A DNA stretch of 64,000 nt from Candidatus Saccharimonadota bacterium. Its GTDB lineage: Bacteria; Patescibacteriota; Saccharimonadia; Saccharimonadales; Saccharimonadaceae. Location of the stretch: positions 62,001-126,000 of the forward strand of contig JAQBRV010000004.1 in NCBI GenBank assembly GCA_028286285.1, read 5' to 3'. Below the pieces are notes generated by a model that worked only from the letters and a program-made list of their open reading frames with translations, was not told where the DNA came from and searched no databases. Positions 21,431-36,007 of the stretch are shown piece by piece (the stretch's first letter is position 1; each line of letters opens with the position of its first letter). The translations under genes and the position numbers were made by a program.

Positions 21431-21506
21431 GCGGGTGTAGCTCAGTTGTTAGAGCGCTTCCTTGCCAAGGAAGAGGTCGAGAGTTAGAGTCTCTTCACCC
21501 GCACCA
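21431..21506 (+). tRNA. tRNA-Gly (GCC), integration site
   Basis: The acceptor stem GCGGGTG pairs with CACCCGC, the anticodon loop TTGCCAA gives GCC, and CCA is encoded. The D-loop is AGTTGTTA (U at 19) and the T-loop TTAGAGT (A at 56), replacing the near-universal G19-C56 pair by U19-A56. No terminator follows the CCA; instead the 3' end of a serine recombinase gene runs antisense through the tRNA, so this is the left attachment site of the adjacent element. Confidence 0.9.
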
Positions 21507-23149
21507 CGAACGAAATCATTGGCATCAACGAACCCTTTCCAGGGTTCGCTTAGTTTATAAGACACTTGTGACCCCTTACGGAAGTCTCCATTCGCTGCCG
21601 TAATCGTAAAGTTAGAGAAGAAAATACGCAGTAGTGTATCCATAGTCTGCATGTTGCGTATTTTACCCAGTATAACGGGGGTAGATTCAAAAAGTTTGAG
21701 GTATTCTTCAAAGGTTGGAATTGAGTTTTTTACGTTGTCACGTAGTCTCAGATTCTTTTGATAATCACTCCTTAACACCTCGATTTCCTTCGTGTACTTG
21801 TCGAGGTCGTAGTGAGCTTTAAGCTCAGGGTTATCCCTAATGAGAACTTTTGTCTGCTCGTAAGCCCTCTCCTTATTTGCTGCCACAGTCCTTAGTCTGC
21901 CTATGGCGCTATCGAACTCAGCCTTCTTCGCCTCAACGGTCTTTTCGGCTCGTTTAACGAAGTCTGCGTAATTACTATTTGTTACAAAGAGGTAATCAGC
22001 AAAGAACTTCTGTGCAGCGTTAATCACCAACTCAGCTCTTGCCGATCTACCTTCCAACTCGCACCCTTCAGTTTCGCATTTATAGTAGTAGCGAGCGTTT
22101 TTAAGATTCCCTTCAGCGTCCCTCTTATTGATAAGCATGGAGGTCAAAGTCTTCTGGCAATGACCGCAGTATACTCGTCCGTTGAGCAATTTCGCTCGAA
22201 TTGTGCCACCACGGGGTCTCTGGCGAGCTGATATTTTAGTAACACTAAGCGGGTCAATCTTATTAATCTTGAAGAACTCCTCTGCGGTTATCATAGGTGT
22301 AAAACCGTATGTTTCCATCAGGTCAACGTGATTCTTACCCCATGCATGGATTCCAGTACTGTGAGGGTCTCTCAGTAGCTTCGACACATCATCTTTACTC
22401 CAGACGTGAGGTACTGGTTCGGCTCCCTGGCGCTTCTGGACAGTATAACCCTGCTCATTTATCCATTCTCGTATATCTTTCTGGGATTTTCCAGCAAGTG
22501 CCATTTCAAACATATGCTTAACCTTAGTGAAGTTTACTGGGTCGGGTTGGAAGTATCTGTCTGAATCGACAGTATATCCGTGCTTGAATTTCCCGATAAA
22601 CTCAGCGCCCTCAATAGCACGAGCATTACCCCTATCCACAGACTCCGCCAAATGTTCCGAGTACTGCTTCGCCATGACGAATGTTATCCCGAGCAGCATC
22701 TTACCTGCGGGGGTGTTCTCAAAAGTAAAGGTGGGGAAGCGCAGGTCTTTTATCAAACCCCTATCTACGAGGTCGATGATTGCTCCTGCCTCTTTCATAT
22801 TTCGGGATAGCCTATCAGGATGCCAAGCAATAACACCGTCAATATGTCCCAATTCTATATCTCGTATCATTTCTTTGAACCGTTCACGGGTATCCGCTAT
22901 TTTGGCTGAATAGCTTTCTTGATATACCTTAAATACATTTAGAGGATTAGATTCATCGGCAGCGACGACCCTTTCCATGCAGTCTTTTATTTGGTCTTCT
23001 ATAGAGGAAGATTGTCTGTCTTCGCTGGTTGTTGACTTCCTCGCATATAACCCATACCTTACAGTATTTGTGTCGACCTCACTTGGTCGCCCAGGTTGAC
23101 CTGCAAGTAAGAAGTCGAGTAATTGCTTTCTGTCTTCGCCTTGTTCCAT
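21449..23149 (-). CDS. Large serine recombinase (site-specific integrase)
   Basis: The 566-residue product has an N-terminal resolvase domain with the catalytic serine in YARKST (Ser39) and arginines in HPDRLSR, a recombinase domain, a zinc-ribbon-like segment (CGHCQ, then CETEGC), a coiled coil near 380-470 and a C-terminal region. Its last 18 codons lie inside tRNA-Gly, so the present C-terminus (after DANDFVRGA) is antisense tRNA. The element's own tail probably survives at 29245-29358. A minus-strand TATAAT ends seven bases before the ATG. Confidence 0.93.
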   Translation of the reverse strand: MEQGEDRKQLLDFLLAGQPGRPSEVDTNTVRYGLYARKSTTSEDRQSSSIEDQIKDCMERVVAADESNPLNVFKVYQESYSAKIADTRERFKEMIRDIELGHIDGVIAWHPDRLSRNMKEAGAIIDLVDRGLIKDLRFPTFTFENTPAGKMLLGITFVMAKQYSEHLAESVDRGNARAIEGAEFIGKFKHGYTVDSDRYFQPDPVNFTKVKHMFEMALAGKSQKDIREWINEQGYTVQKRQGAEPVPHVWSKDDVSKLLRDPHSTGIHAWGKNHVDLMETYGFTPMITAEEFFKINKIDPLSVTKISARQRPRGGTIRAKLLNGRVYCGHCQKTLTSMLINKRDAEGNLKNARYYYKCETEGCELEGRSARAELVINAAQKFFADYLFVTNSNYADFVKRAEKTVEAKKAEFDSAIGRLRTVAANKERAYEQTKVLIRDNPELKAHYDLDKYTKEIEVLRSDYQKNLRLRDNVKNSIPTFEEYLKLFESTPVILGKIRNMQTMDTLLRIFFSNFTITAANGDFRKGSQVSYKLSEPWKGFVDANDFVRGAGEETLTLDLFLGKEAL

Positions 23150-23156
23150 TCATGAC

Positions 23157-23162
23157 ATTATA
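23157..23162 (-). promoter_or_regulatory. Leaderless -10 box of the recombinase
   Basis: TATAAT on the minus strand, seven bases before the recombinase ATG at 23149. Confidence 0.65.
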
Positions 23163-23193
23163 AGGCTTTTATAATAGTTAGAGCTACTTTAGG

Positions 23194-23325
23194 CTATAGA
23201 ATAATTCGCACACCATCCAGAATCAGATAGGGTTTTTCCTCGGATTCATCGACTAGCAAATAGGAATCCAAGATTTGTACAACCTCAGAAATATCGACTG
23301 TTTTGGTTTTATTGGAGTTCTCCAT
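23194..23325 (-). CDS. 43-residue small protein upstream of recombinase
   Basis: An ATG-started frame of 43 codons reads MENSNKTKTVDISEVVQILD and ends in PYLILDGVRIIL. The composition is protein-like (acidic, helical, strand-like C-terminus). It is codirectional with the recombinase, 44 bases upstream. The position would suit a recombination directionality factor or small regulator, but nothing in the sequence proves this. Confidence 0.45.
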   Translation of the reverse strand: MENSNKTKTVDISEVVQILDSYLLVDESEEKPYLILDGVRIIL

Positions 23326-23478
23326 ATGGAGTCTTTTGCAAGACTTCCATGGTGAGAATCTTTAATGGTAGCGTAAAAAATATCGTGTATCTTTTGTACT
23401 ACTTTCACTATCCATTATAGGCTTTTTTCAACATTTTGTAAATGTTTTTATGCTTATTATTCATAATAATTACCACTG

Positions 23479-23838
23479 TTAATCCACTGTAGATTCATAC
23501 CTAGGCATAAGTCTACTAATAACGATTGGCTCCCGTCTCAAAACTTCCTGTGAAACAGCTCCTCGTTCCTGCTGATCGGCGAGCCAACCGATGGCTTGCA
23601 TGTTGCCTTGGAGTGCCTTATGAACGGTCGCTAGTACGACTGCTTTGGCGTAAGTCATTGATTTACCCTCAGTCAATTCGGCAATACTGCTTTTGGCGAG
23701 CACACTGCTATCAGCTTCTTGGTCGAGTAGTTCCTGAACAATCGTGGACATATTTTTACTGCCAGGTTTGCGACCTGATGGATTGCCTGATTGTCCTGGT
23801 GGCCAGGGTGTTAAATTTGGATATTTTTGTGTTTTCAT
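23479..23838 (-). CDS. DUF5681-like protein (terminase-small-subunit-like N-terminus)
   Basis: The 119-residue protein begins MKTQKYPNLTPWPPGQSGNP followed by SGRKPGSKN, the motif of DUF5681 proteins found in phages and mobile elements. The remainder is helical (MTYAKAVVLATVHKALQGN). The family may bind DNA. TATAAT lies 12 bases upstream of the ATG. The mobile-element context supports a role in the element rather than the host. Confidence 0.7.
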   Translation of the reverse strand: MKTQKYPNLTPWPPGQSGNPSGRKPGSKNMSTIVQELLDQEADSSVLAKSSIAELTEGKSMTYAKAVVLATVHKALQGNMQAIGWLADQQERGAVSQEVLRREPIVISRLMPRYESTVD

Positions 23839-24001
23839 GTGTCTATTCCTATTATAGCTAATTGGTTATTTCTCATCTGTTAGTTGCATTGTCCTGTAAC
23901 GCATTCTAAGGCGATTTAAGAGGTTTTAACGCGCGAAATGAGTATAGGGTCATCTTTATGTTTTGCCTCTGTTACAGGTGGCGTTTTTGGCAATTATTTC
24001 G

Positions 24002-24007
24002 TATAAT
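24002..24007 (+). promoter_or_regulatory. -10 box of the structured RNA
   Basis: TATAAT, placed about seven bases before the first paired base of the RNA fold at 24014. Confidence 0.6.
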
Positions 24008-24011
24008 AGCA

Positions 24012-24151
24012 AGGCTTAGACAAAATAATTCACGCCAAATTAGCATTCTTGTGATTGCTACGGTTTATGCGATAAAAGCAGCCGTAGCAAAACCCAGAAG
24101 CGTAAGCCGAAGGGCGTGATGGTCTAAGCAACCCGCTACGGTTGCTTTTTT
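24012..24151 (+). ncRNA. Structured RNA with intrinsic terminator, attenuator-like
   Basis: Nested stems are visible: GCTTAGAC (24014-24021) with GTCTAAGC (24122-24129); TCACGCC (24030-24036) with GGCGTGA (24113-24119); TTGCTACGG (24055-24063) with CCGTAGCAA (24082-24090). It ends in a terminator AGCAACC/GGTTGCT (24127-24146) plus six T. CCGTAGC can alternatively pair with GCTACGG inside the terminator loop (24135-24141), and AGCAACC recurs at 24158-24164 just before the next gene, giving competing folds. It may be a cis attenuator of the gene at 24184 or an independent small RNA. No known class was recognised. Confidence 0.65.
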
Positions 24152-24183
24152 GTTTCTAGCAACCGTTCAGCAGAAAAGTTGCT

Positions 24184-24843
24184 ATGACAAATACGACATC
24201 TCACAATCCATGGCAAAACCTCAAGCCACTCTATGTCTTACCAGAAGACTTTGCTGTGATTGCGGGTCATCGAAATTATTCTAACTTACGACTTGATGCG
24301 TTACCGAGTCAGGTGATTGGTGGTCTCGATAAGGCGGAAGTTATCTTTCTACTGTTAAATCCTGGCTTTAGCGAGGGTGACATTACTGTTGACCTACAAA
24401 TCCCTCATTTTGTTGCAGCTAATCGCCTAAACCATATAGACCCATATGGTTCGCCATTCTACTACTTCAACGGTGGCTTAGAGCGAACGGGAGGCTATAA
24501 GTGGTGGAAAAGAGTACTTAATCCTTTAATGCAGGGCGGTGTGACAGAGGATATGTTAAGGGAAAAGATTATGACGATTGAGTTTTTTCCGTATCATTCG
24601 AAAGATTGGATGGATTTACCCCAAGTTCCTTCGCAGCAGGTGGCGTTTGACTTAGTGCGCGAGGCTATTAAAAGGAAGAAGACTTTGATTATTCGTAGCC
24701 CCCAAAGATGGCTAGAAGTAATACCCGAATTAGCCACATATCCTTATGTAACATTCAGGAGCAATCTAAACGTAACGGTGTCGCCCAAGAACGTAGGCGA
24801 AGTGAACTTCAACAACATAAAGAATCTTATAATGGGAGAATAG
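24184..24843 (+). CDS. Uracil-DNA-glycosylase-fold protein (distant)
   Basis: The 219-residue product has a motif VIFLLLNPGFSEGD (about 53-66), like the first active-site loop of the uracil-glycosylase superfamily, and a downstream IEFFPYHSKDW. These are typical of UDG-like proteins found in mobile and defence regions. Which base, if any, it excises cannot be told. It is the first gene after the structured RNA and is followed two bases later by the gene at 24846. Confidence 0.55.
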   Translation: MTNTTSHNPWQNLKPLYVLPEDFAVIAGHRNYSNLRLDALPSQVIGGLDKAEVIFLLLNPGFSEGDITVDLQIPHFVAANRLNHIDPYGSPFYYFNGGLERTGGYKWWKRVLNPLMQGGVTEDMLREKIMTIEFFPYHSKDWMDLPQVPSQQVAFDLVREAIKRKKTLIIRSPQRWLEVIPELATYPYVTFRSNLNVTVSPKNVGEVNFNNIKNLIMGE

Positions 24844-24845
24844 TC

Positions 24846-25223
24846 ATGAACGAAGAATACAAGCTCATACCACTCCAGAAAACGCAATCAATTCCAGTAA
24901 GTTGGAGGTTCACTCAGGAAGAATACGATAACATGGCCAAAGGTCATCGCTCTAACTGGTGTGTATTCTTGCGTGACGATGTTGTGCATGTTTGCCGAAT
25001 TGGAGGAGAAGAGTTTTATCGGTTTACGGTAAGTAAGACTGGCGATGGGGTCTATGCGACCGACGACCTAGAAGCATATATACCCGATGACTTCTATGAG
25101 TCTGCAAGGCAGCATGGATGGACAGACCAGGAAATCGAACGACACCAAGCAGAGTTGAGAGAGTCTGTGATTGAAGAGACTGTTGGATTACTTGCAAGTT
25201 ACTTCAATATCAATACGGCTTAA
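24846..25223 (+). CDS. Hypothetical protein in element unit 1
   Basis: The 125-residue protein is acidic and soluble, with a beta-rich first half (VHVCRIGGEEFYRFTVSKT) and a helical C-terminus. No family recognised. The ATG at 24846 follows a GGGAG site and starts two bases after the preceding stop, so it is cotranscribed with the UDG-like gene. Its end overlaps the convergent gene at 25220 by four bases. Confidence 0.65.
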   Translation: MNEEYKLIPLQKTQSIPVSWRFTQEEYDNMAKGHRSNWCVFLRDDVVHVCRIGGEEFYRFTVSKTGDGVYATDDLEAYIPDDFYESARQHGWTDQEIERHQAELRESVIEETVGLLASYFNINTA

Positions 25224-26092
25224 AAACCGTATTTTTCTTGTAGCTCAATGTATTTTTTATCGTGCGACTTATCAATGTCGCGGAATATTTTAAGTTCGAC
25301 GCCTTTTTTGAGCTTTTGAGTTCGATTAACGATTTGAAGGAATGCTACTAAGAACTTGTAGGCTGTTTGTGCAGCACGTACAGTTTCATAAATTGGCGCA
25401 TCTAATCTAATTTCGAGATAGGCTTTTGGCTCAATCCTGCTGTTATTCATATTACCTAATACAGTCGAGTGAGTATCGCCTGAAAGAATAGAATAAACGC
25501 CACGGTAATCAAATTGGGTCAGTGTTTTATAATCGGGATTCTTGGCTAAATTAGAATCATCTATTTTTTTCAAACGTGCGAGAAGTGATTTGTATGAATC
25601 AAGTCTGATAGTGGGATGTGACTCACTGAACTTTTCTAGCTCAGCTCTTCGTCTGGCGATAGTCCTGGTTATAGCTTCATCAGAAATAGTTCTTTTCCAA
25701 GTTTCAGCGTTTGGATAAGCCGCACGGAGTCTTTGAACATCTGTCCATGTGCCTAATTGCTGCTTGGATTCCGAAGCAAGTCTAATCTTTAAGTTGATAT
25801 TAGACACTTCTAGGTTGATAAAATCGTATTCTGCTAACGTCTCCCACATAGAGCGAATCAGTATGTTGCTTGCGTTGCCTTGGTTGGCTCTAGTTAACGC
25901 AAGAATAGCATCTGCTCTCTGATATAAAGCACTAAAAGTGTTATAGCGAATAACCGTCTTAGCTTTAACATAGTGCTTGTAGCTGGCTGACTCGAGCAAT
26001 TCCTTAGCAAATCCGAGTAAACTTTCGAGGTCTGAAATTACCTCGTCTCTTAGCTGATTAGTATCTCTTACATATTCTGTTTCACTTGTCAT
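25220..26092 (-). CDS. DUF5677 family protein
   Basis: The 290-residue all-helical product has the DUF5677 features RSMWETLAEYDFI and YSILSGDTHST, with conserved Arg, Glu and His. Family members are common in defence islands, but their activity is unestablished. The ATG at 26092 is preferred to the upstream frame because the promoter elements (minus-strand TATTAT/TATAAG at 26103-26111) lie within the longer version. It is divergent from the HEPN operon and shares an overlapping promoter with it. Confidence 0.75.
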   Translation of the reverse strand: MTSETEYVRDTNQLRDEVISDLESLLGFAKELLESASYKHYVKAKTVIRYNTFSALYQRADAILALTRANQGNASNILIRSMWETLAEYDFINLEVSNINLKIRLASESKQQLGTWTDVQRLRAAYPNAETWKRTISDEAITRTIARRRAELEKFSESHPTIRLDSYKSLLARLKKIDDSNLAKNPDYKTLTQFDYRGVYSILSGDTHSTVLGNMNNSRIEPKAYLEIRLDAPIYETVRAAQTAYKFLVAFLQIVNRTQKLKKGVELKIFRDIDKSHDKKYIELQEKYGF

Positions 26093-26104
26093 AGCTCTAA
26101 GCCT

Positions 26105-26110
26105 TATAAT
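26105..26110 (+). promoter_or_regulatory. -10 box of the HEPN operon, overlapping divergent promoter
   Basis: TATAAT on the plus strand ends six bases before the ATG of a 12-codon leader frame. The same bases contribute to the minus-strand box of the DUF5677 gene, so expression of the two units should be mutually linked. Confidence 0.6.
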
Positions 26111-26116
26111 AGCAGT

Positions 26117-26155
26117 ATGTTGTTGAGTCAAATAACCAGATGGAATAACGAATAA
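26117..26155 (+). CDS. 12-codon leader peptide coupled to the HEPN gene
   Basis: The frame encodes MLLSQITRWNNE and its TAA overlaps the next ATG (TAATG). Its ATG lies six bases after TATAAT, so it would be the leaderless first frame of the mRNA and would deliver ribosomes to the HEPN gene, which has no Shine-Dalgarno site. It is too short to be judged by composition. Confidence 0.5.
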   Translation: MLLSQITRWNNE

Positions 26156-27156
26156 TGAATAACTCGCGACGGCTTCCGAGCTATATAGTCCCTATGGAGG
26201 AAATTGTTCTCGATAAATTACGCGTTATTCCCGCCGAGCCGGTAATCGTAAATGATGATTGGCAAAGAAATCACAGGTCTGGCTCGATAATCATTGAAGA
26301 AGATGGCCATAATGGTCTGATTGATAATTGGGTATACTTCCATGCACTCCTGGCGGATAGCAGACTACCAGTTTATGCGCTCCATGCAAAGGGTGAAGAA
26401 GCGAGCAGTTTTCAGATTAACGAGTTCGATAATGAGGATAATGTAAATTTAGTTCCGAGAGTCATAAACTTCGACTCGGAAGATTTGTTACCAGCAGTGT
26501 ATTTGGACTACGAGGAGCCACCAGAAGTTTCTTACAAAAAGGCTTATGATGCCTATATAAAACAAGGTAACGTATACTTTTCAGCACTAAAAAACTACTT
26601 CGTCGCGCAAGACATTAACTTTAATAAACGACTACGTAACATAGACAACTCATATTGGCAGATAGTAATGCTGGTGTCGACCTTGGAAGCATTGCTACCT
26701 CCTCCTGTATTTTGCAAAGGTAAATGCGAGACATGCGGTAAGGGTCTATCCCATGTGTTGAATGACCCTGGTAAAGACTGGAACGAACTACTCTTTAACA
26801 AAATTACGGATAAAAAGATAAGAAAACAATATAGGGATGTCTTAGATGAAGCACGTTATAAGATTCGCAACGACACCGTACATAACGGCTTAGCACCTGG
26901 AAACACTTTTTGGAAGTCACCTTCTCTACCTGATGGCGTTACGGAGTATACAACCACGAAGTCTCTCGAAAAATATAAAACAGACAGATATTCTTTAGAA
27001 AGTTTTATCGACCAATTGAAACAAGTCTGTAGGTACTTACTATTAAATCAGTTCATCGTGTGCGACATATTTCCATCGCTGAAAGGGATAGAAGTGCATA
27101 GCTTTTCCGCAACATCAACCGAGTCGAATTTTACAATGAATATAGAGATTAATTAG
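26155..27156 (+). CDS. Apea-like HEPN domain protein
   Basis: The 333-residue protein has an N-terminal beta-rich region and a C-terminal helical domain containing WQIVMLVSTLEALLP (about 168-182), three cysteines (187, 191, 194) and the HEPN motif R-x4-H in KIRNDTVHNG (Arg238, His243). Apea-like HEPN proteins such as ApeA are RNases that arrest translation during phage infection. That role here is inferred. It heads a three-gene operon with gaps of only 11-12 bases. Confidence 0.7.
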   Translation: MNNSRRLPSYIVPMEEIVLDKLRVIPAEPVIVNDDWQRNHRSGSIIIEEDGHNGLIDNWVYFHALLADSRLPVYALHAKGEEASSFQINEFDNEDNVNLVPRVINFDSEDLLPAVYLDYEEPPEVSYKKAYDAYIKQGNVYFSALKNYFVAQDINFNKRLRNIDNSYWQIVMLVSTLEALLPPPVFCKGKCETCGKGLSHVLNDPGKDWNELLFNKITDKKIRKQYRDVLDEARYKIRNDTVHNGLAPGNTFWKSPSLPDGVTEYTTTKSLEKYKTDRYSLESFIDQLKQVCRYLLLNQFIVCDIFPSLKGIEVHSFSATSTESNFTMNIEIN

Positions 27157-27167
27157 GAGGAATTAAG

Positions 27168-28454
27168 ATGCCAACAGTTAACGGAAATATATATCCTGAC
27201 TTAAAAATACATCCATCAGCAAATGAGATATTTCGAATAGCGTTGCTGAGTGTCGATGAAGAGCATTTGTTTGAAATGATGAAAAAGCTGGATGTTCTAA
27301 AATACTACTTAAGTGACATAGGCGTGGGATTCGAAATTGAAGTGAATGTGGTCAATAGCGTAGCAACCGACTCTCGAAAAGAAGAGCTTGGCTATAAGGT
27401 TTTCGATGACCTTAATAATGAGAAGGAGGCGGTTCTTTCATATGCAACAACCAATAATATCGATTTGATTTATTCGGATGACGAGTCATTCATTCGTGAA
27501 TTGTACGCGGCGGGCAAGCCGTTTCAGTATGCCGATAGTTTGCTTCAACTCGAAAATGAGATTGATGCATTTGTAGCTGGAAAGAACGTAGCTTGGGATT
27601 TTAATCATCCTCTATGGAATGCGTCATGGTTTTCAAAATATATTGAGATTCAACCGTTAATGGGTAATCTAAGGGAACTCCACGACTCAACTCAAAGACT
27701 TAATTATACGCCACAGCAATCAACATACGTTAGAGCCTTGCAGCACAAAGCAATGCAGCTTAGGCACAGTGAAGAAATTATATTGTCGCTCATTCAGAAG
27801 AAGAATTATGCGGAACGTAATTACATGCGGACTGATTCATATGGCTATGAGAGCTATTATGACTATTCTTTTGAGATAGACTTTCAACTTACTAATTTTT
27901 ACATTCTGCTTTCAGGAACTTTCGATATTATTGGTAGATTGCTTACGAGCCTTTACGATATTAAGGGTAAAGATATTCGCCCGAACATAGAGCATGCAAA
28001 CTTCTTAAAAGTTTTGGAGTCTAAGAATAAAGATTTGTATGATTTTTATTCCGAAAAAGAAATGAATAACTGGATGGTATGGATTAAGCGAAAACGTAAC
28101 TATGTAGCCCATGAATCCGAAGCCAGTTACACTACAGTGTATAAGGCTAAAAAACAGAAGATTTCGGACGCCGATATTGAAAAGAAAGTTAACGCGATGC
28201 AGAAGTGGGACGGCATTCGCTTGCTAGCGGGCGAGCAGTATGTTGAATCTCAGAAAGAGTTTGCAAGACATATTGTTAGGATGCATGAAGATAATGAGGT
28301 TTATACAAAAGAGGCAATGCAGGTAAACTATTATGATTCAGCGGAAAAAGAAGATGCCACAATGCTCTTCCATCCTCTTGTTGATACGAAGGCTGACTAT
28401 GATAAATATGAATCTCTCATTGATAACACCGCGAGGATATTGCTAGGGAAATAG
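27168..28454 (+). CDS. Second HEPN-type protein of the defence operon
   Basis: The 428-residue product carries WIKRKRNYVAHES near residues 306-318, an R-x4-H motif (Arg310, His315) in the helical setting expected for HEPN ribonucleases. Residues 225-260 hold an aromatic-rich segment. The N-terminal 130 residues are a separate alpha/beta region of no recognised family. An AGGAGG site precedes the ATG by six bases. Two HEPN proteins in tandem suggest a heteromeric nuclease or toxin-antitoxin pair, not shown. Confidence 0.6.
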   Translation: MPTVNGNIYPDLKIHPSANEIFRIALLSVDEEHLFEMMKKLDVLKYYLSDIGVGFEIEVNVVNSVATDSRKEELGYKVFDDLNNEKEAVLSYATTNNIDLIYSDDESFIRELYAAGKPFQYADSLLQLENEIDAFVAGKNVAWDFNHPLWNASWFSKYIEIQPLMGNLRELHDSTQRLNYTPQQSTYVRALQHKAMQLRHSEEIILSLIQKKNYAERNYMRTDSYGYESYYDYSFEIDFQLTNFYILLSGTFDIIGRLLTSLYDIKGKDIRPNIEHANFLKVLESKNKDLYDFYSEKEMNNWMVWIKRKRNYVAHESEASYTTVYKAKKQKISDADIEKKVNAMQKWDGIRLLAGEQYVESQKEFARHIVRMHEDNEVYTKEAMQVNYYDSAEKEDATMLFHPLVDTKADYDKYESLIDNTARILLGK

Positions 28455-28466
28455 TCCACAAATCAT

Positions 28467-29255
28467 ATGAAGTCTACAATAAATTCACATTTGGTCTCAC
28501 AGGTTTTACTGCGTCGATTTGCAGTTAAAAACGATGAGGATAAATGGGTTACTATTCAACACGATAAAGACCAAGGCAGTGAATCGATTAAAGAGGTTGA
28601 ACATGTTGCTTGCAAGGAGGTGCCGCGTAAGTTAATTCAGCTACTAGAAGCAGAGTGGTCGGATGAAATTGAAAAACATGCAAATAAAGCAATCAATAGT
28701 TTGGCTCATCATAATTGGACAGAAGCGCATTTTGCTACCATTAAAGACCTAATAGCACTTCATCTTATTCGTTCACAAGCATTCCAAATGGTTGAAGACA
28801 ATAAAGATGACTTGATGAATAGAATTAAAGTAATCCGAGACGAAGCGATGGAAGAAAACCCTGAACTTAGCGATGTATTTAACTATCTATATGAGAAAGA
28901 AGCTAGAGACGCTACATTGGATGTATCTATCGGGGTCTTGGTTGAATACATAAGAAAAACTCGTGATTTTCTCACTAAGCCAGAAATCGGTCTTGATATT
29001 GGATTCGCTCCAGAAGGTAAGGAATTTATTATTGGCGAGGTGCCTGTCATCTCTATTTTTAAAGATGGTAAAATAGCACCAATAACCGACGCAAAGTATG
29101 TCGGTATGCCAATAACGCCAAAAATAATCGTCACCCTTAAAACGAAGCCGACTAGAGACAAGCCAGTAACGTTGACACCAACCGAAGTTGACCGTGTGAA
29201 CCAGCTTCAAATGAAACATACATATAAAGTATTCTTTTCGAAGCCTAGTAAATGA
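28467..29255 (+). CDS. DUF4238 family protein
   Basis: The 262-residue protein starts with the DUF4238 pattern SHLVSQVLLRRFAV and has the later EFIIGEVPVISIF motif. Family members are frequent in defence islands, with unknown biochemistry. It ends the HEPN operon. Its stop overlaps, on the other strand, the stop of the orphan recombinase tail. Confidence 0.72.
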   Translation: MKSTINSHLVSQVLLRRFAVKNDEDKWVTIQHDKDQGSESIKEVEHVACKEVPRKLIQLLEAEWSDEIEKHANKAINSLAHHNWTEAHFATIKDLIALHLIRSQAFQMVEDNKDDLMNRIKVIRDEAMEENPELSDVFNYLYEKEARDATLDVSIGVLVEYIRKTRDFLTKPEIGLDIGFAPEGKEFIIGEVPVISIFKDGKIAPITDAKYVGMPITPKIIVTLKTKPTRDKPVTLTPTEVDRVNQLQMKHTYKVFFSKPSK

Positions 29256-29358
29256 TTACTGTCGCGGACGGTTGGCTTAACGGGATTGATGGCACTGCGT
29301 TGTATACGTTATCGATGATGTACTCGAAAAGTTTAAGTAGATTCTGTTCGGTTGCACC
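29245..29358 (-). pseudogene. Orphan recombinase C-terminal tail 1 (right end of unit 1)
   Basis: On the minus strand 38 codons run from the GCACCA motif (Gly-Ala) through GATEQNLLKLFEYIID to VIIY and a stop. It has no start and is not joined to a recombinase body. It aligns with two other tails at 33056 and 33712. The tail is probably the element's original recombinase C-terminus, separated when the element integrated. Confidence 0.7.
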
Positions 29359-29371
29359 AATTAAATATGAG

Positions 29372-29803
29372 CTATCTAGCTCTTATTATTTTACAATTAG
29401 AACAGACACCTTGAATTTCCAACTGGTGCGACGTGTTTGTGTATCCATACTTTTGAGTAACTTTATTAATAAAACGTTCTATCTCACCATGTTCATGGAC
29501 TGAGATTAACTTTCCGCATTTGATGCAACTAATATGATGATGGTGTTCTATAAAAATATCAGATAGTTCGATTTTATACTTCCAACCAATCTGAATTTTA
29601 TGTACAATCCCGAGCCCGATAAATAACTCTATAACACGATAAATACTAGTACGATTAATTTTAGAGTTGATTCGACTTTCTAACTCTTGCATAGTCCGAG
29701 GTTCACTATTCAAAAGAGCAAGAAATACGGTTTTGCGAGCATTTGTAACGAAGACATTATTTTTTCGAAGAGTTTTTTCCAGTAATTCGATGCTATTATC
29801 CAT
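29372..29803 (-). CDS. Fur/Zur family metalloregulator
   Basis: Fur-family proteins repress promoters when bound to Fe, Zn or other metals. From the ATG at 29803 (143 residues) it shows a winged-helix domain (NRTSIYRVIELFIGLGIVHK), the metal motif HHHHISCIKCGK with a CxxC, and a second C-terminal CSNC, matching four-cysteine structural zinc sites. It is divergent from the SDR-COG0523 operon, and a palindrome abuts its start. The neighbours favour a Zur-like (zinc) sensor, by inference. Confidence 0.85.
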   Translation of the reverse strand: MDNSIELLEKTLRKNNVFVTNARKTVFLALLNSEPRTMQELESRINSKINRTSIYRVIELFIGLGIVHKIQIGWKYKIELSDIFIEHHHHISCIKCGKLISVHEHGEIERFINKVTQKYGYTNTSHQLEIQGVCSNCKIIRAR

Positions 29804-29830
29804 GTTGCAATATTGTATACAAATTGCAAC
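29804..29830. promoter_or_regulatory. Palindromic operator at the Fur/Zur-like gene
   Basis: GTTGCAAT and ATTGCAAC arms are separated by 11 bases that include the palindrome TTGTATACAA. A partial third copy (ATTTGCAA) follows at 29832-29839. The site ends exactly at the regulator ATG and covers its -10 region (TACAAT), which suits autorepression and control of the divergent operon. Confidence 0.65.
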
Positions 29831-29870
29831 AAATTTGCAATCTACATATTTCTCACTTACGATGATAGAT

Positions 29871-30746
29871 ATGAATAAAAAAGCACTTATAGTCATAACT
29901 GGAGTTAAGTTTAGCGAAGTAAAACGAGACTTTTCAGCAAGAGACTACATTACATATATTGAGCATGATAATAAAAAATATAAGATGAATGCGGCAGCAG
30001 GTGTGGTACGTCAACTAATTAATGACTATGAAATAATCTGTACCGGTTACAGTGAACTTGATGGTGATATTTTAGCTTCAGCTTTTGGATTAAGCAAAGA
30101 TAGATTCTTCACGACTAACCTACTGAATAAAGTAGAAACTGATGAATTCGTTGAAGCAGTAGCTGATTTGAAGACTGACCTAAACATTTCTGTACACCTA
30201 GTGCACTATGGTGGAGCATCAGATACAAAAACAAAACTACCTAACGACAGCTTACTCGCTCATACCTGGGACTTAAAAGCAGAAGCATTGCCGGCACTGA
30301 TTGAAAACAATTGTGTAACTCTTATTAATATCCTTCAGTCTATGAAGAAGCATGAGATATTTGAAGGACAGTCTATATCAAAAGTATTGTTCATCTCTGC
30401 AGCTGCTGCGGTGCGAGCTAAGCAAATGCTCGGACTTGATGTTGCTCAGAAAGGTGCGGGTCATGGTTTAATTCGAACTATTGCTCTTGACCTGACACCT
30501 GAGAATATTTTCGTAACAGAAATTATGCCTGGTAGTACTGACACTGGTTTCTTTGACAATGACTACTCACTGGATACAGCTGTGGAAGTAACAAAACGAC
30601 TAGGTTATGAAAACACTCGCGACACTTACCCAGTATTCACAGCAGAGCAAATAGGTGATGCAGCTAAGTACACACTTGATGCCAATTGTAACGTCAGAGA
30701 GCTTGTCCTATTGCCGTATGGCCAGTTCCCTCATCTAGGGGCTTAA
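29871..30746 (+). CDS. Short-chain dehydrogenase-like protein, atypical active site
   Basis: The 291-residue product shows the C-terminal SDR pattern KGAGHGLIRTIALDL and EIMPGSTDTGFF, but the N-terminal dinucleotide Gly-rich loop is poorly conserved. The position of the catalytic Tyr, four residues before the conserved Lys, is Asp (LDVAQK). It may be a non-catalytic or altered-function SDR. The ATG at 29871 is chosen because the upstream frame crosses the operator. It is followed four bases later by the COG0523 gene. Confidence 0.65.
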   Translation: MNKKALIVITGVKFSEVKRDFSARDYITYIEHDNKKYKMNAAAGVVRQLINDYEIICTGYSELDGDILASAFGLSKDRFFTTNLLNKVETDEFVEAVADLKTDLNISVHLVHYGGASDTKTKLPNDSLLAHTWDLKAEALPALIENNCVTLINILQSMKKHEIFEGQSISKVLFISAAAAVRAKQMLGLDVAQKGAGHGLIRTIALDLTPENIFVTEIMPGSTDTGFFDNDYSLDTAVEVTKRLGYENTRDTYPVFTAEQIGDAAKYTLDANCNVRELVLLPYGQFPHLGA

Positions 30747-30750
30747 TCTT

Positions 30751-32337
30751 ATGAGTCGGGAGAATTTTGAAGTCATATCTCTGCTTGGGCCACTTGGTTC
30801 AGGCAAAACGACGACACTTAACAATCTGATTGAAAAGGTGCCTTTAGCTGATAGCTATGCTGTCGTTGTGAATGATGTTGGAGAAAATAATGTCGATGCG
30901 CAGCGTATATGGGACCATCCCGCGAATCGGAGCGAGAAGATTATCCCTCTCACGGCAGGTTGTATTGGTTGTAGTGATGTCACACAGTTTAGGGAAGCAT
31001 TAGAAAAAGTACACGACGCAGGCGTCAATGTATTATTTATCGAACCGACTGGGATTGCTCCTGGTAATGAAATTGTGGATGTAGTCGAGTCGAGTGGGTT
31101 TAATCTTTCGGTTCTGACCCTTGCTAACGCACGTACAATTGAGCGTGATATGAAGTGGCAAGTACTGCCGAGTCAATTGGCTGTTGCAAATATTGTAGGG
31201 ATTACTCATATACCTGAAGGCAGCGACAATGCTGAAGTAATGGACACCGTGCTTGACCAACTGCCTCCACTTGCTGACGATGTCACTGTTGAACTAATTA
31301 AGCCTGGGGATACAAACTATTTTGAGATTCTCGCAAATTTGCGCGGTATGGATAAGCAGCTCAGGCTAGGCCGTCAAACACTACATGTTGTATCTGACCA
31401 TGACCATCATCACGACGATGATTGTAGCGGACACAATATTAGTGCTAAATCTTATCGCCTGCGTCCTGATGCATCGCTTGAGGCTGTAAAACAGTTACTT
31501 ATGCCTTACACTCAGAGTGACATTCCACTCTTACGCGCCAAGGGGGTGATTGGGGGTATGCGTTTCGACGTTGTAGGTGATGAATGGAAAATCCAACCTG
31601 ATGAAAGTAGCTTGCAAAGTATGAATGTCATATTCGCTGACCATATGCCAGCCACATTTCTTGATGCTGTACATGATTTATCTGAAACTCAGGAACGTGT
31701 ACTCATATCGGGAGATAAAAAGTCAGTCGTTAAATCAGTCAGTGATTTGCCCGTAAAAGAACGATTGGAGATTGTTAATGAACGAGTGAGGCAATACCCT
31801 CATCCAATTAGTCCTATGCATGGTGAAATCATCCCAGACTGTGAAGCGGATGAAGGATATGAAATAGCCTTCTGGGGCAACAAAGATGATATGCCCGATG
31901 ATGCGAAGCATCTAACCATGTCTGCATATATTTCATTTAGACTTGAAGGTCTCCACGAATTACAGCATCACAGCGAAAAGATAGCCAACTTTGACGCTAA
32001 GGCAGCCTACTGGGTAAGGAGATTTGGTGCGACGCTCGGCTACAATAGTTATTACTTAAGTGACTATATTCCTGAAGACAGCCTAAGTAGGATACGGGAC
32101 GTAAATCCTGCACGAATGCTTTGTAATGGCTTGATGGCATTAGATAAATTTACATTCGACGAAGGCCGAGCAGAAGAAAAGCCTGAATTTGTTGCAAGTG
32201 TTATGCGAGCTGCATACGAGAATGATGACGTAACAATGAAAGAACTTGAAACACTAAAGGTATATATGCTGAAAATTTCAAAGGATAATGAAGACTTTGA
32301 ATCACGATGGAAAACTACTTTCTCATTCGTTGACTAA
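30751..32337 (+). CDS. COG0523 (CobW/ZNG-like) metal-chaperone GTPase
   Basis: COG0523 GTPases deliver metals, often zinc, under starvation and are commonly Zur-regulated. The 528-residue protein has Walker A GPLGSGKTTT, a CIGC motif in TAGCIGCSD (the usual motif is CxCC), the EPTG switch region, a His/Asp-rich metal loop DHDHHHDDDCSGH and a CobW C-terminal domain. It has a C-terminal extension of over 150 residues not usual for the family (family length about 320-400). Its position beside a Fur/Zur-like gene agrees with a zinc role. Confidence 0.82.
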   Translation: MSRENFEVISLLGPLGSGKTTTLNNLIEKVPLADSYAVVVNDVGENNVDAQRIWDHPANRSEKIIPLTAGCIGCSDVTQFREALEKVHDAGVNVLFIEPTGIAPGNEIVDVVESSGFNLSVLTLANARTIERDMKWQVLPSQLAVANIVGITHIPEGSDNAEVMDTVLDQLPPLADDVTVELIKPGDTNYFEILANLRGMDKQLRLGRQTLHVVSDHDHHHDDDCSGHNISAKSYRLRPDASLEAVKQLLMPYTQSDIPLLRAKGVIGGMRFDVVGDEWKIQPDESSLQSMNVIFADHMPATFLDAVHDLSETQERVLISGDKKSVVKSVSDLPVKERLEIVNERVRQYPHPISPMHGEIIPDCEADEGYEIAFWGNKDDMPDDAKHLTMSAYISFRLEGLHELQHHSEKIANFDAKAAYWVRRFGATLGYNSYYLSDYIPEDSLSRIRDVNPARMLCNGLMALDKFTFDEGRAEEKPEFVASVMRAAYENDDVTMKELETLKVYMLKISKDNEDFESRWKTTFSFVD

Positions 32338-32366
32338 TGTATTTGCTATTATAGAATGATACTTCT

Positions 32367-33059
32367 ATGGTGAATAAAAACGTAAATATAAATTTAGTAG
32401 TTCAAAGTACTGCGACGATAAGCGATACTTGTATGTCTGTGTTTTTCGAACATCCGCCAGGTTTCGTGTATGAACCTGGAGATTGGATAGACTTAAATTT
32501 CAACGATGGCAATCCTAGAGGTGGCATTACCTACTCACTTTCATCATCGCCGACAGAAGACAATTTGTCTGTTACATTCAAACTCGGAATAAGTCCATTT
32601 AAGAAACGTCTGCAGTCGCTTGAACCAAATGACACCATGTTTATAAGCCAGTATGGTAATGATTATGGATTTCACTTAAAGGAAAACCGTTCAAGTGTTC
32701 TTATCGCAGGAGGAATTGGCATAGCACCATTTAGAAGCATGATAAAAGAGATGTACGATACAGATAATAAGAATGACGTGCAGCTTATATATCTAAATAA
32801 GGACACGGCTTTTGTTTTTGCCGACGAGCTCAGCTTATGGGAAAAACAACTTCCTAATATAAATGTGAAATATATTATTACAGAACAACTTAGCCGCAAA
32901 AAACGTGAGAAGCTACTTATTCCAATGATAGATAAAAATGCGCATCACTATTTTATTGCTGGTCCTGAGGCAATGGTAGAATCTACCGAACACTTATTAA
33001 TTGATGATATGGGAATTAGTGTAAAAGACATACGTATTGATAGCTTCGGTGGTTATTAA
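32367..33059 (+). CDS. Ferredoxin reductase-type FAD/NAD(P)-binding protein
   Basis: The 230-residue product has the flavin-binding RxYS-like GITYSLSSSP, the nucleotide-binding IAGGIGIAPFRSM and the C-terminal YFIAGPEAMVEST. The terminal FGGY replaces the usual aromatic tail. It would transfer electrons between NAD(P)H and an unknown partner. It ends the metal-cassette operon, and its stop overlaps the stop of orphan tail 2 on the other strand. Confidence 0.82.
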   Translation: MVNKNVNINLVVQSTATISDTCMSVFFEHPPGFVYEPGDWIDLNFNDGNPRGGITYSLSSSPTEDNLSVTFKLGISPFKKRLQSLEPNDTMFISQYGNDYGFHLKENRSSVLIAGGIGIAPFRSMIKEMYDTDNKNDVQLIYLNKDTAFVFADELSLWEKQLPNINVKYIITEQLSRKKREKLLIPMIDKNAHHYFIAGPEAMVESTEHLLIDDMGISVKDIRIDSFGGY

Positions 33060-33208
33060 TAGATAATCGTAACTTTTCTTTCTAACACCTTTTTATTAAG
33101 CTCTTTAGAAACAGATGTAGTCAGGGTTTGTAAATTATCGTTTTGTAGTTCGAGAGGGTTCTCGTATATATAATCTAAAAGTTTGAGGAGTGTCTGTTCA
33201 GGCGCACC
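33056..33208 (-). pseudogene. Orphan recombinase C-terminal tail 2 (right end of unit 2)
   Basis: Fifty-one minus-strand codons begin at the GCACCA motif with GAPEQTLLKLLDYIYEN and end in KVTIIY and a stop. It aligns with tails 1 and 3 mainly at amino-acid level (LLKL, IIY-stop), with different third bases, so it was once under coding selection in a different recombinase. Confidence 0.7.
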
Positions 33209-33225
33209 AATTTTAGCAATTTGTC

Positions 33226-33249
33226 AAATACGCTTTCGGGCGTATTTTT
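33226..33249 (+). terminator. Terminator after att motif 2
   Basis: AAATACGC pairs with GCGTATTT, followed by T. It sits 17 bases after GCACCA, the spacing expected for a tRNA terminator. Confidence 0.75.
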
Positions 33250-33263
33250 GCTATTATTATCCT

Positions 33264-33701
33264 ATGATAAATACCAATAAGCCCGTTCAAGATTTTCTCG
33301 CAACATTAGACGAGGATACGTTAAAAGATAGCGAAATTCTTTTCGAGATAATGCAACGAATAAGCAATGCTGAGCCTAAAATATGGAATGAACATACTAT
33401 AGGTTTTAGTTCATATCATTATAAGTATGACAGTGGTCGCGAGGGAGATAGCCAAATACTTAGTTTTTATCCTAGGAAGGCTAAAATCACCATTTACCTA
33501 ATGGATGGGACAGCGCGCTACGCTACATTATTAGATAAGCTAGGTAGTCATACAACCACTGGATACTGTGTTGTGGTCAAAGGCCTTGGTGATATAGAAC
33601 TATCTGTTCTTGAAGAGATTTTGCAGCAGTCTTACGACTATATAAAGTCAATATCTCAAACAGGATCTGTAGACAGAATTTTATGGAAGACTGAAAAGTA
33701 A
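33264..33701 (+). CDS. DUF1801 (YdhG-like) protein, cargo of unit 3
   Basis: The 145-residue product has the DUF1801 pattern (VQDFLATLDEDTLKDSEILF, then PKIWNEHTIGFSSYHYKY and a C-terminal helix). The fold is related to iron-chaperone frataxin-like YdhG, but function is unknown. The ATG at 33264 lies six bases after TATTAT. Two other DUF1801 genes occur at 33943 and 52444. Confidence 0.78.
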   Translation: MINTNKPVQDFLATLDEDTLKDSEILFEIMQRISNAEPKIWNEHTIGFSSYHYKYDSGREGDSQILSFYPRKAKITIYLMDGTARYATLLDKLGSHTTTGYCVVVKGLGDIELSVLEEILQQSYDYIKSISQTGSVDRILWKTEK

Positions 33702-33711
33702 TTACTTACCG

Positions 33712-33825
33712 TTAATAGATAATCCTTTCCCTAATTTCGCTATTTATTGGGATAGATGGTGAGCCTGAAAGTTGCCCATCTACGAGCACCCCAAAGAGTT
33801 TAAGTAAATTCTGTAGCTCCGCACC
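33712..33825 (-). pseudogene. Orphan recombinase C-terminal tail 3 (right end of unit 3)
   Basis: Thirty-eight minus-strand codons from GCACCA: GAELQNLLKLFGVLVDG to ERIIY and a stop. It is the same length as tail 1, again with IIY-stop. Confidence 0.7.
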
Positions 33826-33843
33826 ACTGTTATCATGCAAGAT

Positions 33844-33867
33844 AAAACACCTTTCCGGGTGTTTTTG
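33844..33867 (+). terminator. Terminator after att motif 3, probable native tRNA-Gly terminator
   Basis: AACACC pairs with GGTGTT and five T follow in all. It begins about 20 bases after the last GCACCA, so it may be the original terminator of tRNA-Gly, pushed 12 kb away by the insertions. Confidence 0.65.
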
Positions 33868-33942
33868 TTATTATTGGTTACAGAGCTACGTACGATCAAT
33901 AGCTGGATACATACCAGTAGCCGTAAGCAGGATAGAAATTTT

Positions 33943-34284
33943 ATGAATGAAGAAGTAACGCAGTATATACAAAAAACACAGGCATGGCAGATAGAAGTGT
34001 GCAATACATTGCGTGATCTCGTATTAACGAATGTGCCTAATGTAGAAGAACGGTTGCAATACGGCAAGCCACACTATCTAAAGGATGGAAGTTATCTGGC
34101 GGTAATCCATGTAAGCAAAGACAAGGTGTCATTCATGTTGTTTAATGCAACCAAAATTCCCGAAGTAAAAGGCTTCTTACGCTCAATGGGTAACGGCGAT
34201 CGTAAAACAGTTGATATTCGTGATGGGCAATCAGTTGACTACGAACAGCTCGCTAATCTAGTGCGTAAAGTCAGCCAGGTATAA
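33943..34284 (+). CDS. DUF1801 family protein
   Basis: The 113-residue protein has the core VPNVEERLQYGKPHYLKDG and FMLFNATKIPEVKGFL of DUF1801 proteins. The ATG at 33943 starts the conserved domain. The upstream in-frame extension reads through the tRNA-like terminator and is rejected. Function unknown. Confidence 0.75.
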   Translation: MNEEVTQYIQKTQAWQIEVCNTLRDLVLTNVPNVEERLQYGKPHYLKDGSYLAVIHVSKDKVSFMLFNATKIPEVKGFLRSMGNGDRKTVDIRDGQSVDYEQLANLVRKVSQV

Positions 34285-34497
34285 AAAACAAAGCTTCAGC
34301 CACATTAGAACCCCTCATTGGTGAATCGGAATACATAATGTATAGCCGCTAAGTCTTTTCAGTTTATATATTTTTTTATATTAGAAGAATTAATAGTTAG
34401 AAATACGTCTACTACGCAACACCATCCTAATTGTGTTTGATTAATAATAATGCTAACTTATTTAAAGAAGCTTATTAATTAAGAAAGGGTGTTTGAA

Positions 34498-34878
34498 ATG
34501 TCTAAATATGTTGATGGTTTTGTGTTGGTCGTGCCAAAAGGGAAAGAAGTAGAATACCAAAAGATGGCAGAAATGGGACGGGATTCATGGATGAAGCACG
34601 GTGCGCTTCAATACTTTGAATGTAGAGGTGATGACCTAAAGCAGCAAGAAATGGGTGATGAAAAGTCACGTGCTTATTCCGAAATGACAGGCGCAACAAG
34701 TGACGATAATGTGTGGTTCTCATTTATTGTTTTCAATTCTAGGGAGCACCGCGACGAGGTAAATAAAAAGGTAATGGATGAGATGAGTGAAGCTTATCAA
34801 GAACAAACTGACTTTATAATGCCGACTGACATGACGAAAATGGCATATGGTGGGTTTGAGGTAGCAGTCGAAGGTTAA
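34498..34878 (+). CDS. DUF1428 family protein
   Basis: The 126-residue product matches DUF1428 (YVDGFVLVVPKGKEVEYQKM, GALQYFECRGDD and MAYGGFEVAVEG at the end), a ferredoxin-like-fold family of unknown role. An AGAAAGGG site precedes the ATG at 34498 by a few bases. A GTG nine bases upstream is a less likely start. Confidence 0.85.
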   Translation: MSKYVDGFVLVVPKGKEVEYQKMAEMGRDSWMKHGALQYFECRGDDLKQQEMGDEKSRAYSEMTGATSDDNVWFSFIVFNSREHRDEVNKKVMDEMSEAYQEQTDFIMPTDMTKMAYGGFEVAVEG

Positions 34879-35032
34879 AGGGCTTAGTCGGCCGAAGTTA
34901 CAGTGTAGATCGTAGGACTTACTTATTATTTAAAATACTCTCTGTATGGGATAGCCAGGAGTTTCCTCCATAAAGCCAGTTCTTCCCTGATCTCGTGTAA
35001 AACTAATGTGTAGTATTGCACCATTGAAATAG

Positions 35033-35056: not shown

Positions 35057-35074
35057 AATGCTATGATGGAAGCA

Positions 35075-36007
35075 ATGAATGTTCACTTCATCTGTCGTGG
35101 CAATGTCTTGCGCAGCCTTATTGCCGAAACATACCTCAAGTCGTTAAACATAAAAGATGTAGAAGTTATTTCCAGCGGAACAAACGTTAATTGGAACGAC
35201 CCCCAAGAGCGCAAATACTTTGCCCATACGTTAGCCGTTCTAGATAGACATGGCATCAAGTCTTTCGCAAAATCGATACCAGAGCAGTTAACCCAAGCTC
35301 GGATAGATGCAAACCATGACATTGTAGTTCTAATGAATCAGCGAGTTGTTGATGAAGCTTCCAGGATTGTTGAGCTGCCTAAGAATACTCTTAGCTGGGC
35401 GATCATCGACATCGGTGAAGGTCATCGAACTGACGCTAAGGGCCGTGAATCATATGAAGAAGAAATATACCAAGAAATAACACGGAAAGTAGATAGTCTA
35501 TTTTCGGATCAATCAATAATTGATAAAGTAGTAGATATGGATTCAAGACAATCTAATCTAAAAAGAATGGACAACGTCGGCATCGTTGTGGAGTCACTCG
35601 ACGAAGTCGTTTCTTTTTTCGAAGAACTTGGTTTACAGCTCGAAGGAAAAGGGATAGTCGAAGGAGAATGGGCTGGGCGGGTCACTGGACTAGGTGATCA
35701 AAGTGTCGAGGTTGCTATGATGGTTACCCCTGATGGACATAGCAGATTGGAACTATCGCGGTTTCTTACCCCACCCGTAGTTGCTGACCATCGCAACGCT
35801 CCAGTGAATGCTCTTGGCTATCTACGTTCTATGTTTACCGTCGAAGATATTGACGATACGGTCGCTAGACTGCAAAAACACGGTGCGGAGCTTGTGGGTG
35901 AGATAGTTCAGTACGAGGACGTATATCGCCTGTGTTACATCCGTGGCCCAGAACAAATCCTGATTGGACTAGCAGAAGAACTCAAAGCAGGAACGACGGA
36001 CAAATAG
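35075..36007 (+). CDS. Fusion of LMW phosphatase-like and VOC (glyoxalase-like) domains
   Basis: The 310-residue product has an N-terminal low-molecular-weight phosphotyrosine-phosphatase fold with the P-loop CRGNVLRS (C-x5-R, residues 7-13) and a C-terminal VOC domain from about residue 167 (RMDNVGIVVESLDEVVSFFE, then NALGYLRSMFTVEDID). The combination is unusual. The P-loop replaces the common CRS with LRS. TATGAT lies six bases before the ATG, so the transcript is leaderless. Substrate unknown. Confidence 0.75.
   Translation: MNVHFICRGNVLRSLIAETYLKSLNIKDVEVISSGTNVNWNDPQERKYFAHTLAVLDRHGIKSFAKSIPEQLTQARIDANHDIVVLMNQRVVDEASRIVELPKNTLSWAIIDIGEGHRTDAKGRESYEEEIYQEITRKVDSLFSDQSIIDKVVDMDSRQSNLKRMDNVGIVVESLDEVVSFFEELGLQLEGKGIVEGEWAGRVTGLGDQSVEVAMMVTPDGHSRLELSRFLTPPVVADHRNAPVNALGYLRSMFTVEDIDDTVARLQKHGAELVGEIVQYEDVYRLCYIRGPEQILIGLAEELKAGTTDK

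Follow-up and report, generated by a model that had tools for sequence, protein, structure and literature searches.

The window, by which we mean the whole 64-kb stretch of DNA analysed here (64,000 nucleotides), contains a tandem array of units lying directly behind a tRNA-Gly gene. The hexamer GCACCA forms the last six bases of the tRNA gene and recurs at the end of each unit. The features of the array are as follows:

21431–21506, plus strand: tRNA-Gly(gcc), the integration target, found with ARAGORN and Rfam; its last six bases (21501–21506) are GCACCA
21449–23149, minus strand: large serine recombinase (LSR) body in its integrated form (Pfam Resolvase 1e-18, Recombinase 6e-12, Zn_ribbon 3e-4)
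21507–29359, no strand assigned: unit 1, 7853 bp, made up of the LSR body, cargo, tail 1 and GCACCA
29245–29358, minus strand: recombinase tail 1 (GATEQNLLKLFEYIIDNVYNAVPSIPLSQPSATVIIY, then a stop codon)
29360–33209, no strand assigned: unit 2, 3850 bp, without a recombinase body, encoding Fur, an SDR-like protein, a CobW-like GTPase and an NAD-binding oxidoreductase, followed by tail 2
33056–33208, minus strand: recombinase tail 2 (GAPEQTLLKLLDYIYENPLEL...TIIY, then a stop codon)
33204–33209, plus strand: left GCACCA core of unit 3
33210–33826, no strand assigned: unit 3, a cassette of 617 bp including the right GCACCA (33821–33826)
33226–33247, plus strand: terminator-like hairpin of unit 3
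33252–33257, plus strand: TATTAT, a -10-like box 6 nt 5' of the ATG (putative leaderless start)
33264–33701, plus strand: DUF1801 gene of 145 aa, the cargo of unit 3 (Pfam DUF1801, E 1.2e-7)
33712–33825, minus strand: recombinase tail 3, the coding C-terminal half of the attachment site
33827–35023, no strand assigned: probable older unit 4, with a terminator, a DUF1801 gene (33943–34284) and a DUF1428 gene (34498–34878)

The LSR was classified as a large serine recombinase by its domains, namely the Resolvase catalytic domain, the Recombinase domain and a zinc ribbon, the last of these with a match (3e-4) that falls short of the curated cutoff. Its relatives in the PDB include YokA (9dxh, E 9e-4), and no small partner recombinase was seen adjoining it in the 64-kb window. 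The final 18 amino acids of the integrated body (GAGEETLTLDLFLGKEAL) are encoded by the antisense strand of the tRNA-Gly gene. The cargo of unit 1 (24184–29255) includes DUF5677, HEPN-like and DUF4238 proteins and could be defence-related. Unit 4 ends with a GCACCA at 35018, where no tail could be recognised. A copy of its DUF1428 gene that is very similar by eye was found downstream of the array in genome G159, after a different set of genes. Further along, positions 35063–36007 hold a fused gene with a low-molecular-weight phosphatase-like half and a glyoxalase half; in G004 each half is a gene of its own, and a single-gene cassette in G023 has just the glyoxalase as its cargo.

The initial annotation had described unit 3 as a terminator, a leaderless promoter, one DUF1801 gene and a recombinase tail between two GCACCA motifs, without a recombinase body, and this content was confirmed at 33204–33826, where no body was found within the 617 bp of the unit. 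The promoter is the exception. The TATTAT box is suitably placed, and a sigma-70 scan of unit 3 for -35/-10 pairs was at chance level, with two pairs found against a mean of 2.7 in shuffled sequences, so that the leaderless promoter rests on the spacing of the -10 box. The minus-strand reading frame of tail 3 (GAELQNLLKLFGVLVDGQLSGSPSIPINSEIRERIIY, then a stop codon) is open, begins at GGTGC and ends in IIY and the stop. The tails at GCACCA 29354, 33204 and 33821 all share one frame relative to GGTGC. In one relative, G013, a natural junction was found in which a tail directly abuts the end of a body and the pair forms one continuous in-frame reading frame (...KEPWDGFLKANELVLGATEQNLLKLFEWL...IIY, then a stop codon). 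This in-frame junction, together with the matching frames of bodies and tails, identifies the tails as C-termini of the LSR, and the LSR gene as one that contains its attachment site and is divided there when the element integrates.

To place unit 3 among related structures, a sample of one genome per species was used. The loci examined held 43 tail sites, of which 33 had a left border and were counted as units, and the 10 without a left border were left out; L078, L085 and L086 were omitted as copies of L090, L088 and L091. Units were cut at type-1 tails only, and 'body-less' denotes a unit without a type-1 LSR body. A body or body fragment was present in 15 of the 33 units, which measured 2.6–11.3 kb, and the other 18 were body-less (545–13384 bp). 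Thirteen of the body-less units, at 545–1514 bp, are too short to hold a recombinase gene of 1.7 kb. Some longer ones may contain a type-2 LSR, and tails of the second type split both the 3776-bp unit of G145 and the 13384-bp unit of G026. The order tRNA-Gly, body, cargo, tail, GCACCA, terminator was common to the 15 delimited LSR units, and the LSR stood next to the tRNA in these 15, most such loci having been chosen because they are LSR-bearing. The supposition that the LSR always adjoins the tRNA was rejected, as the type-1 LSR of G121 sits behind a tail of the second type.

The borders of the units are precise, since the motif that marks the end of the body was present at the left edge of 15/15 LSR units and 0/18 body-less units. 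All 33 units, the 18 body-less ones included, have a terminator-like hairpin no more than 70 nt from the left edge, compared with 739 of 2000 random segments. The view that these terminators are native host sequence only was rejected, as one left edge is common to cassettes with different cargo. The initial annotation had proposed to look for arrays whose units consist of a tail, GCACCA and a terminator, lack a recombinase body and differ in the single gene that they carry, and such arrays do exist in relatives. DUF1801 is the single-gene cargo in G084, G035, G159, G488 and the window; elsewhere it is OmdA (G036), glyoxalase (G023), queuosine salvage (G079), a methyltransferase (G565) or an orphan gene (G145). 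A TANNWT box ending 6–7 nt 5' of the ATG was found in 8 of 11 single-gene units examined, and of 40 units whose tail is intact, 25 have the stop codons of cargo and tail no more than 20 nt apart.

GCACCA by itself is frequent, with 68 occurrences in the 64-kb window against 30 expected, and ordinary genes might by chance come to lie between such hexamers. This explanation is refuted by the behaviour of the complete motif. When tail and GCACCA were combined in a scoring matrix, the 36 training sites scored at least 39.2 bits and the best score on the control strand, over 749 kb, was 9.9 bits. An order-level search at no more than one mismatch matched the tail DNA pattern in 29 of 392 genomes, and the reversed control pattern gave no match among those listed for the same 392 genomes. 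Tail counts were taken either at this level or with the matrix, because at three mismatches the reversed control already gives many chance matches. In the GTDB species collection the tail pattern was found in 24 stretches, 21 of them from Saccharibacteria, TM7 or Patescibacteria and one labelled 'uncultured bacterium' that is the same site as in G026. Two stretches in other phyla appear to be chance matches, with reading frames that lack the IIY end. Judged by these relatives, the genome of the window is probably also of the Saccharibacteria type. IMG/VR, searched with the tail pattern, an attP-like pattern and the LSR protein, gave no match, and thus yielded neither a viral nor a free circular copy. 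The tRNA-Gly site also occurs without any recognisable occupant. In some family members (e.g. G085, G039 and G011) a terminator and then genes of host type come after the tRNA-Gly and no tail was detected, and these loci may hold old cassettes whose tails have been lost.

Two cassettes were found in more than one array. In G488, the array consists of tRNA-Gly, an LSR unit, cassette A (592 bp), cassette B (616 bp) and further genes. Cassette B is the homologue of unit 3 and matches it at 82% identity across 615 of 617 bp, with an alignment that stops at GCACCA. G488 belongs to another family (f31, against f1 for the window), and the array neighbours of the two homologues differ. The proteins they encode are 88% identical, whereas the conserved GTPase TypA is 67% identical and LeuRS segments 50–65% identical between the same genomes, so the cassette has very probably moved horizontally. 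Cassette A, second in G488, is the sole cassette in G084, where it lies next to the tRNA; the two copies are 76% identical over 571 bp and their proteins share 92 of 116 residues, against 70% for TypA of these genomes, which makes a transfer less clear-cut in this case. A more distant relative of unit 3 (61%) was found in G415, alone behind tRNA-Gly and with a tail of the second type.

Body-less units were expected to have lost their tails. Most tails have been kept, with an intact reading frame in 15/18 body-less units and 15/15 LSR units; the tails of the remaining 3 of 18 body-less units are broken. For two pairs of homologous body-less cassettes, dN/dS was 0.29 and 0.31 over the tails and 0.21 and 0.30 over tail codons 13–37, where the two pairs combined gave a Fisher p of 2e-4 on rounded counts; for the cargo of these pairs it was 0.06 and 0.09. 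A dN/dS of about 0.3 and intact frames suggest that the tails of body-less units are still used as protein, and data from these two pairs suggest that they are reused as recombinase C-termini. A codon-position test on the tails gave p 0.04, and constraint on the attachment site at the DNA level may contribute to the low dN/dS. The attachment sites had been proposed to be protein-coding, and the conserved frames, the tail dN/dS values and the in-frame junction in G013 all bear this out.

The reading that we consider probable makes unit 3 a cassette without a recombinase, part of an accretion array that has formed at tRNA-Gly(GCC) through an LSR whose attachment site lies in its own gene. In the circular form, the LSR gene would read body, GCACCA, tail. 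Integration exchanges the halves at GCACCA, so that the body joins the 3' end of the tRNA gene and gains 18 residues of antisense tRNA, and the tail, GCACCA and the old terminator are left at the opposite end of the insert, as the anatomy shows. Repeated insertion would lead to an array. Recombination between the tRNA-body junction and a more distal tail would then excise the LSR with one or more cassettes, rebuild the recombinase with the tail of the last cassette, and release a circle able to enter a new tRNA-Gly gene. Later loss of the LSR unit would leave cassette-only arrays, such as those in G084, G035, G036 and G023. Composite excision of this kind would account both for the spread of single-gene cassettes between hosts and for the open, protein-like tail that body-less cassettes keep. 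The initial annotation had suggested that the resident recombinase mobilises cargo cassettes in trans. The cassette part of that suggestion holds up, and a cassette circle on its own may be mobilised in trans; the data fit composite excision in cis no less well. Several results count against our preferred reading. The tails of 3 of the 18 body-less units are broken, a single right-half attachment motif was sought across all units and none covers all of them, and several cassette-only genomes contain no tRNA-Gly LSR of this subfamily at E ≤ 1e-20. AACGAAWTCA is common to the LSR body ends, and ATTTTA-N4-TTTGTCAAATACGC to several DUF1801 cassettes. At L033 (12018/13173) and L091 (12979/13857) the 14–17 nt to the right of the GCACCA motifs flanking one cassette are nearly identical, possibly a trace of reuse of the right half-site.

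Unit 3 might instead be a CIME-like deletion remnant, an LSR element that has lost its body and is carried passively in composite islands, with no distinct class of cassette. CIMEs formed through decay are the accepted origin of recombinase-less tandem islands (PMC5704250), and the few broken tails are in keeping with decay. We nevertheless regard this as unlikely, since the 13 units of 545–1514 bp begin exactly at GCACCA with no trace of the body end, two cassettes recur with identical borders in different arrays, and the tail stays protein-like after loss of the body. Furthermore, when coordinates were compared by eye, no homologue of unit 3 among the matches listed sat inside a delimited LSR-bearing unit. 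Relatives in which unit 3 was always a simple deletion derivative, with no exchange of cargo, are thus not what was found. Homologous recombination between arrays could also swap cassettes without any action of the LSR, and cassettes with unrelated cargo do have tail stretches of 33–80 bp in common that offer the homology needed, in addition to the tRNA. However, the unit 3 alignment has its right border at GCACCA itself, with no match in the flank beyond it, and site-specific recombination is the better explanation for insertion behind the tRNA gene of a different genus, making this route improbable.

In integrons, too, one-gene cassettes form arrays at a fixed site and the end of each cassette overlaps the recombination site; integrons depend on the tyrosine recombinase IntI, attC hairpins and attI. 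Here, an LSR is found, the shared cassette end is the tail of that LSR, a tRNA gene takes the place of attI, and a separate -10 box is present in most of the single-gene cassettes. The proposed analogy to integrons consequently stands for the recurrence of one-gene cassettes in arrays and fails for the recombinase, which is a serine enzyme. The array is integron-like in outcome, is not an integron, and is best classed as a variant of the serine-recombinase site-specific accretion arrays. It is conceivable, though we put it forward tentatively, that this is a bacterial cassette system other than the integron in which the C-terminus of the mover is the attachment site, excision rebuilds the recombinase, and the tRNA-antisense end could switch between integrating and excising forms. 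SCC elements target a protein gene, rlmH/orfX, their ccr gene is not split by integration and their units measure tens of kb. Like the array here, SCC and its Ccr enzymes combine a serine recombinase, composite arrays at one chromosomal site and units without ccr, according to the available part of PMC3146451.

The nearest precedent is the Dehalococcoides ssrA islands, described in the sections available of PMC3146451. These are likewise tandem islands behind an RNA gene with a serine recombinase, DsiB, whose gene overlaps attL at its 3' end, and 15 of 31 have no integration module. The authors suggest that DsiB may be fully functional perhaps only on the circle or beside an island with a 3' gene fragment (PMC3146451, same sections). 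Those sections define no conserved coding tail and describe no single-gene units below 1 kb, both of which are found here, and DsiB is thought to act with DsiA and to target tmRNA/ssrA rather than tRNA-Gly. In CIME/IME accretion, recombinase-less elements bounded by att sites are moved in cis with their neighbours (PMC5704250, consulted in part), and unit 3 has this layout, lacking a recombinase, having att sites at both ends and lying in tandem behind LSR unit 1. CIMEs are described in that part as decayed ICE/IME remnants, whereas the present arrays contain many intact one-gene units, a coding att half and cassettes that recur across families. Archaeal suicidal integrases of the SSV type share with the LSR an att site inside the gene and splitting of the gene on integration, but they are tyrosine recombinases that lose the catalytic C-terminal part, and the LSR loses its C-terminal tail only (PMC8371274, in part). 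A literature search, with most subscription journals and preprints outside its coverage, found no description of such Saccharibacteria cassettes.

The genomes of Saccharibacteria are very small, and these organisms live on other bacteria. If real, a cassette platform at a single tRNA gene would indicate how they swap small adaptive genes, and if the attachment sites are kept coding because they complete the recombinase, the mobility of cassettes would be linked to recombinase function. The self-splitting gene would also be a serine-recombinase case in bacteria, against the statement in a 2021 review, seen in part, that self-disrupting recombinases are exclusive to archaea (PMC8371274); for a split serine recombinase in bacteria, the Dehalococcoides islands are a partial precedent in the text available (PMC3146451).

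A second type of tail (WCxIvDafQTsa...LsgNLl, in the frame from TGGTGC) shares the GCACCA core and likewise forms the end of cassettes; it was seen at L087 (G488), L107 and L147 (G415), L057 (G145), L050 (G026), L092 (G512) and L145 (G121). In G121 and G565, a type-1 LSR body lies directly behind a tail of this second type. More distant LSRs, about 36–43% identical, were found at L042, L043 and L044, where they end at tRNA-Pro(tgg) and not at tRNA-Gly.
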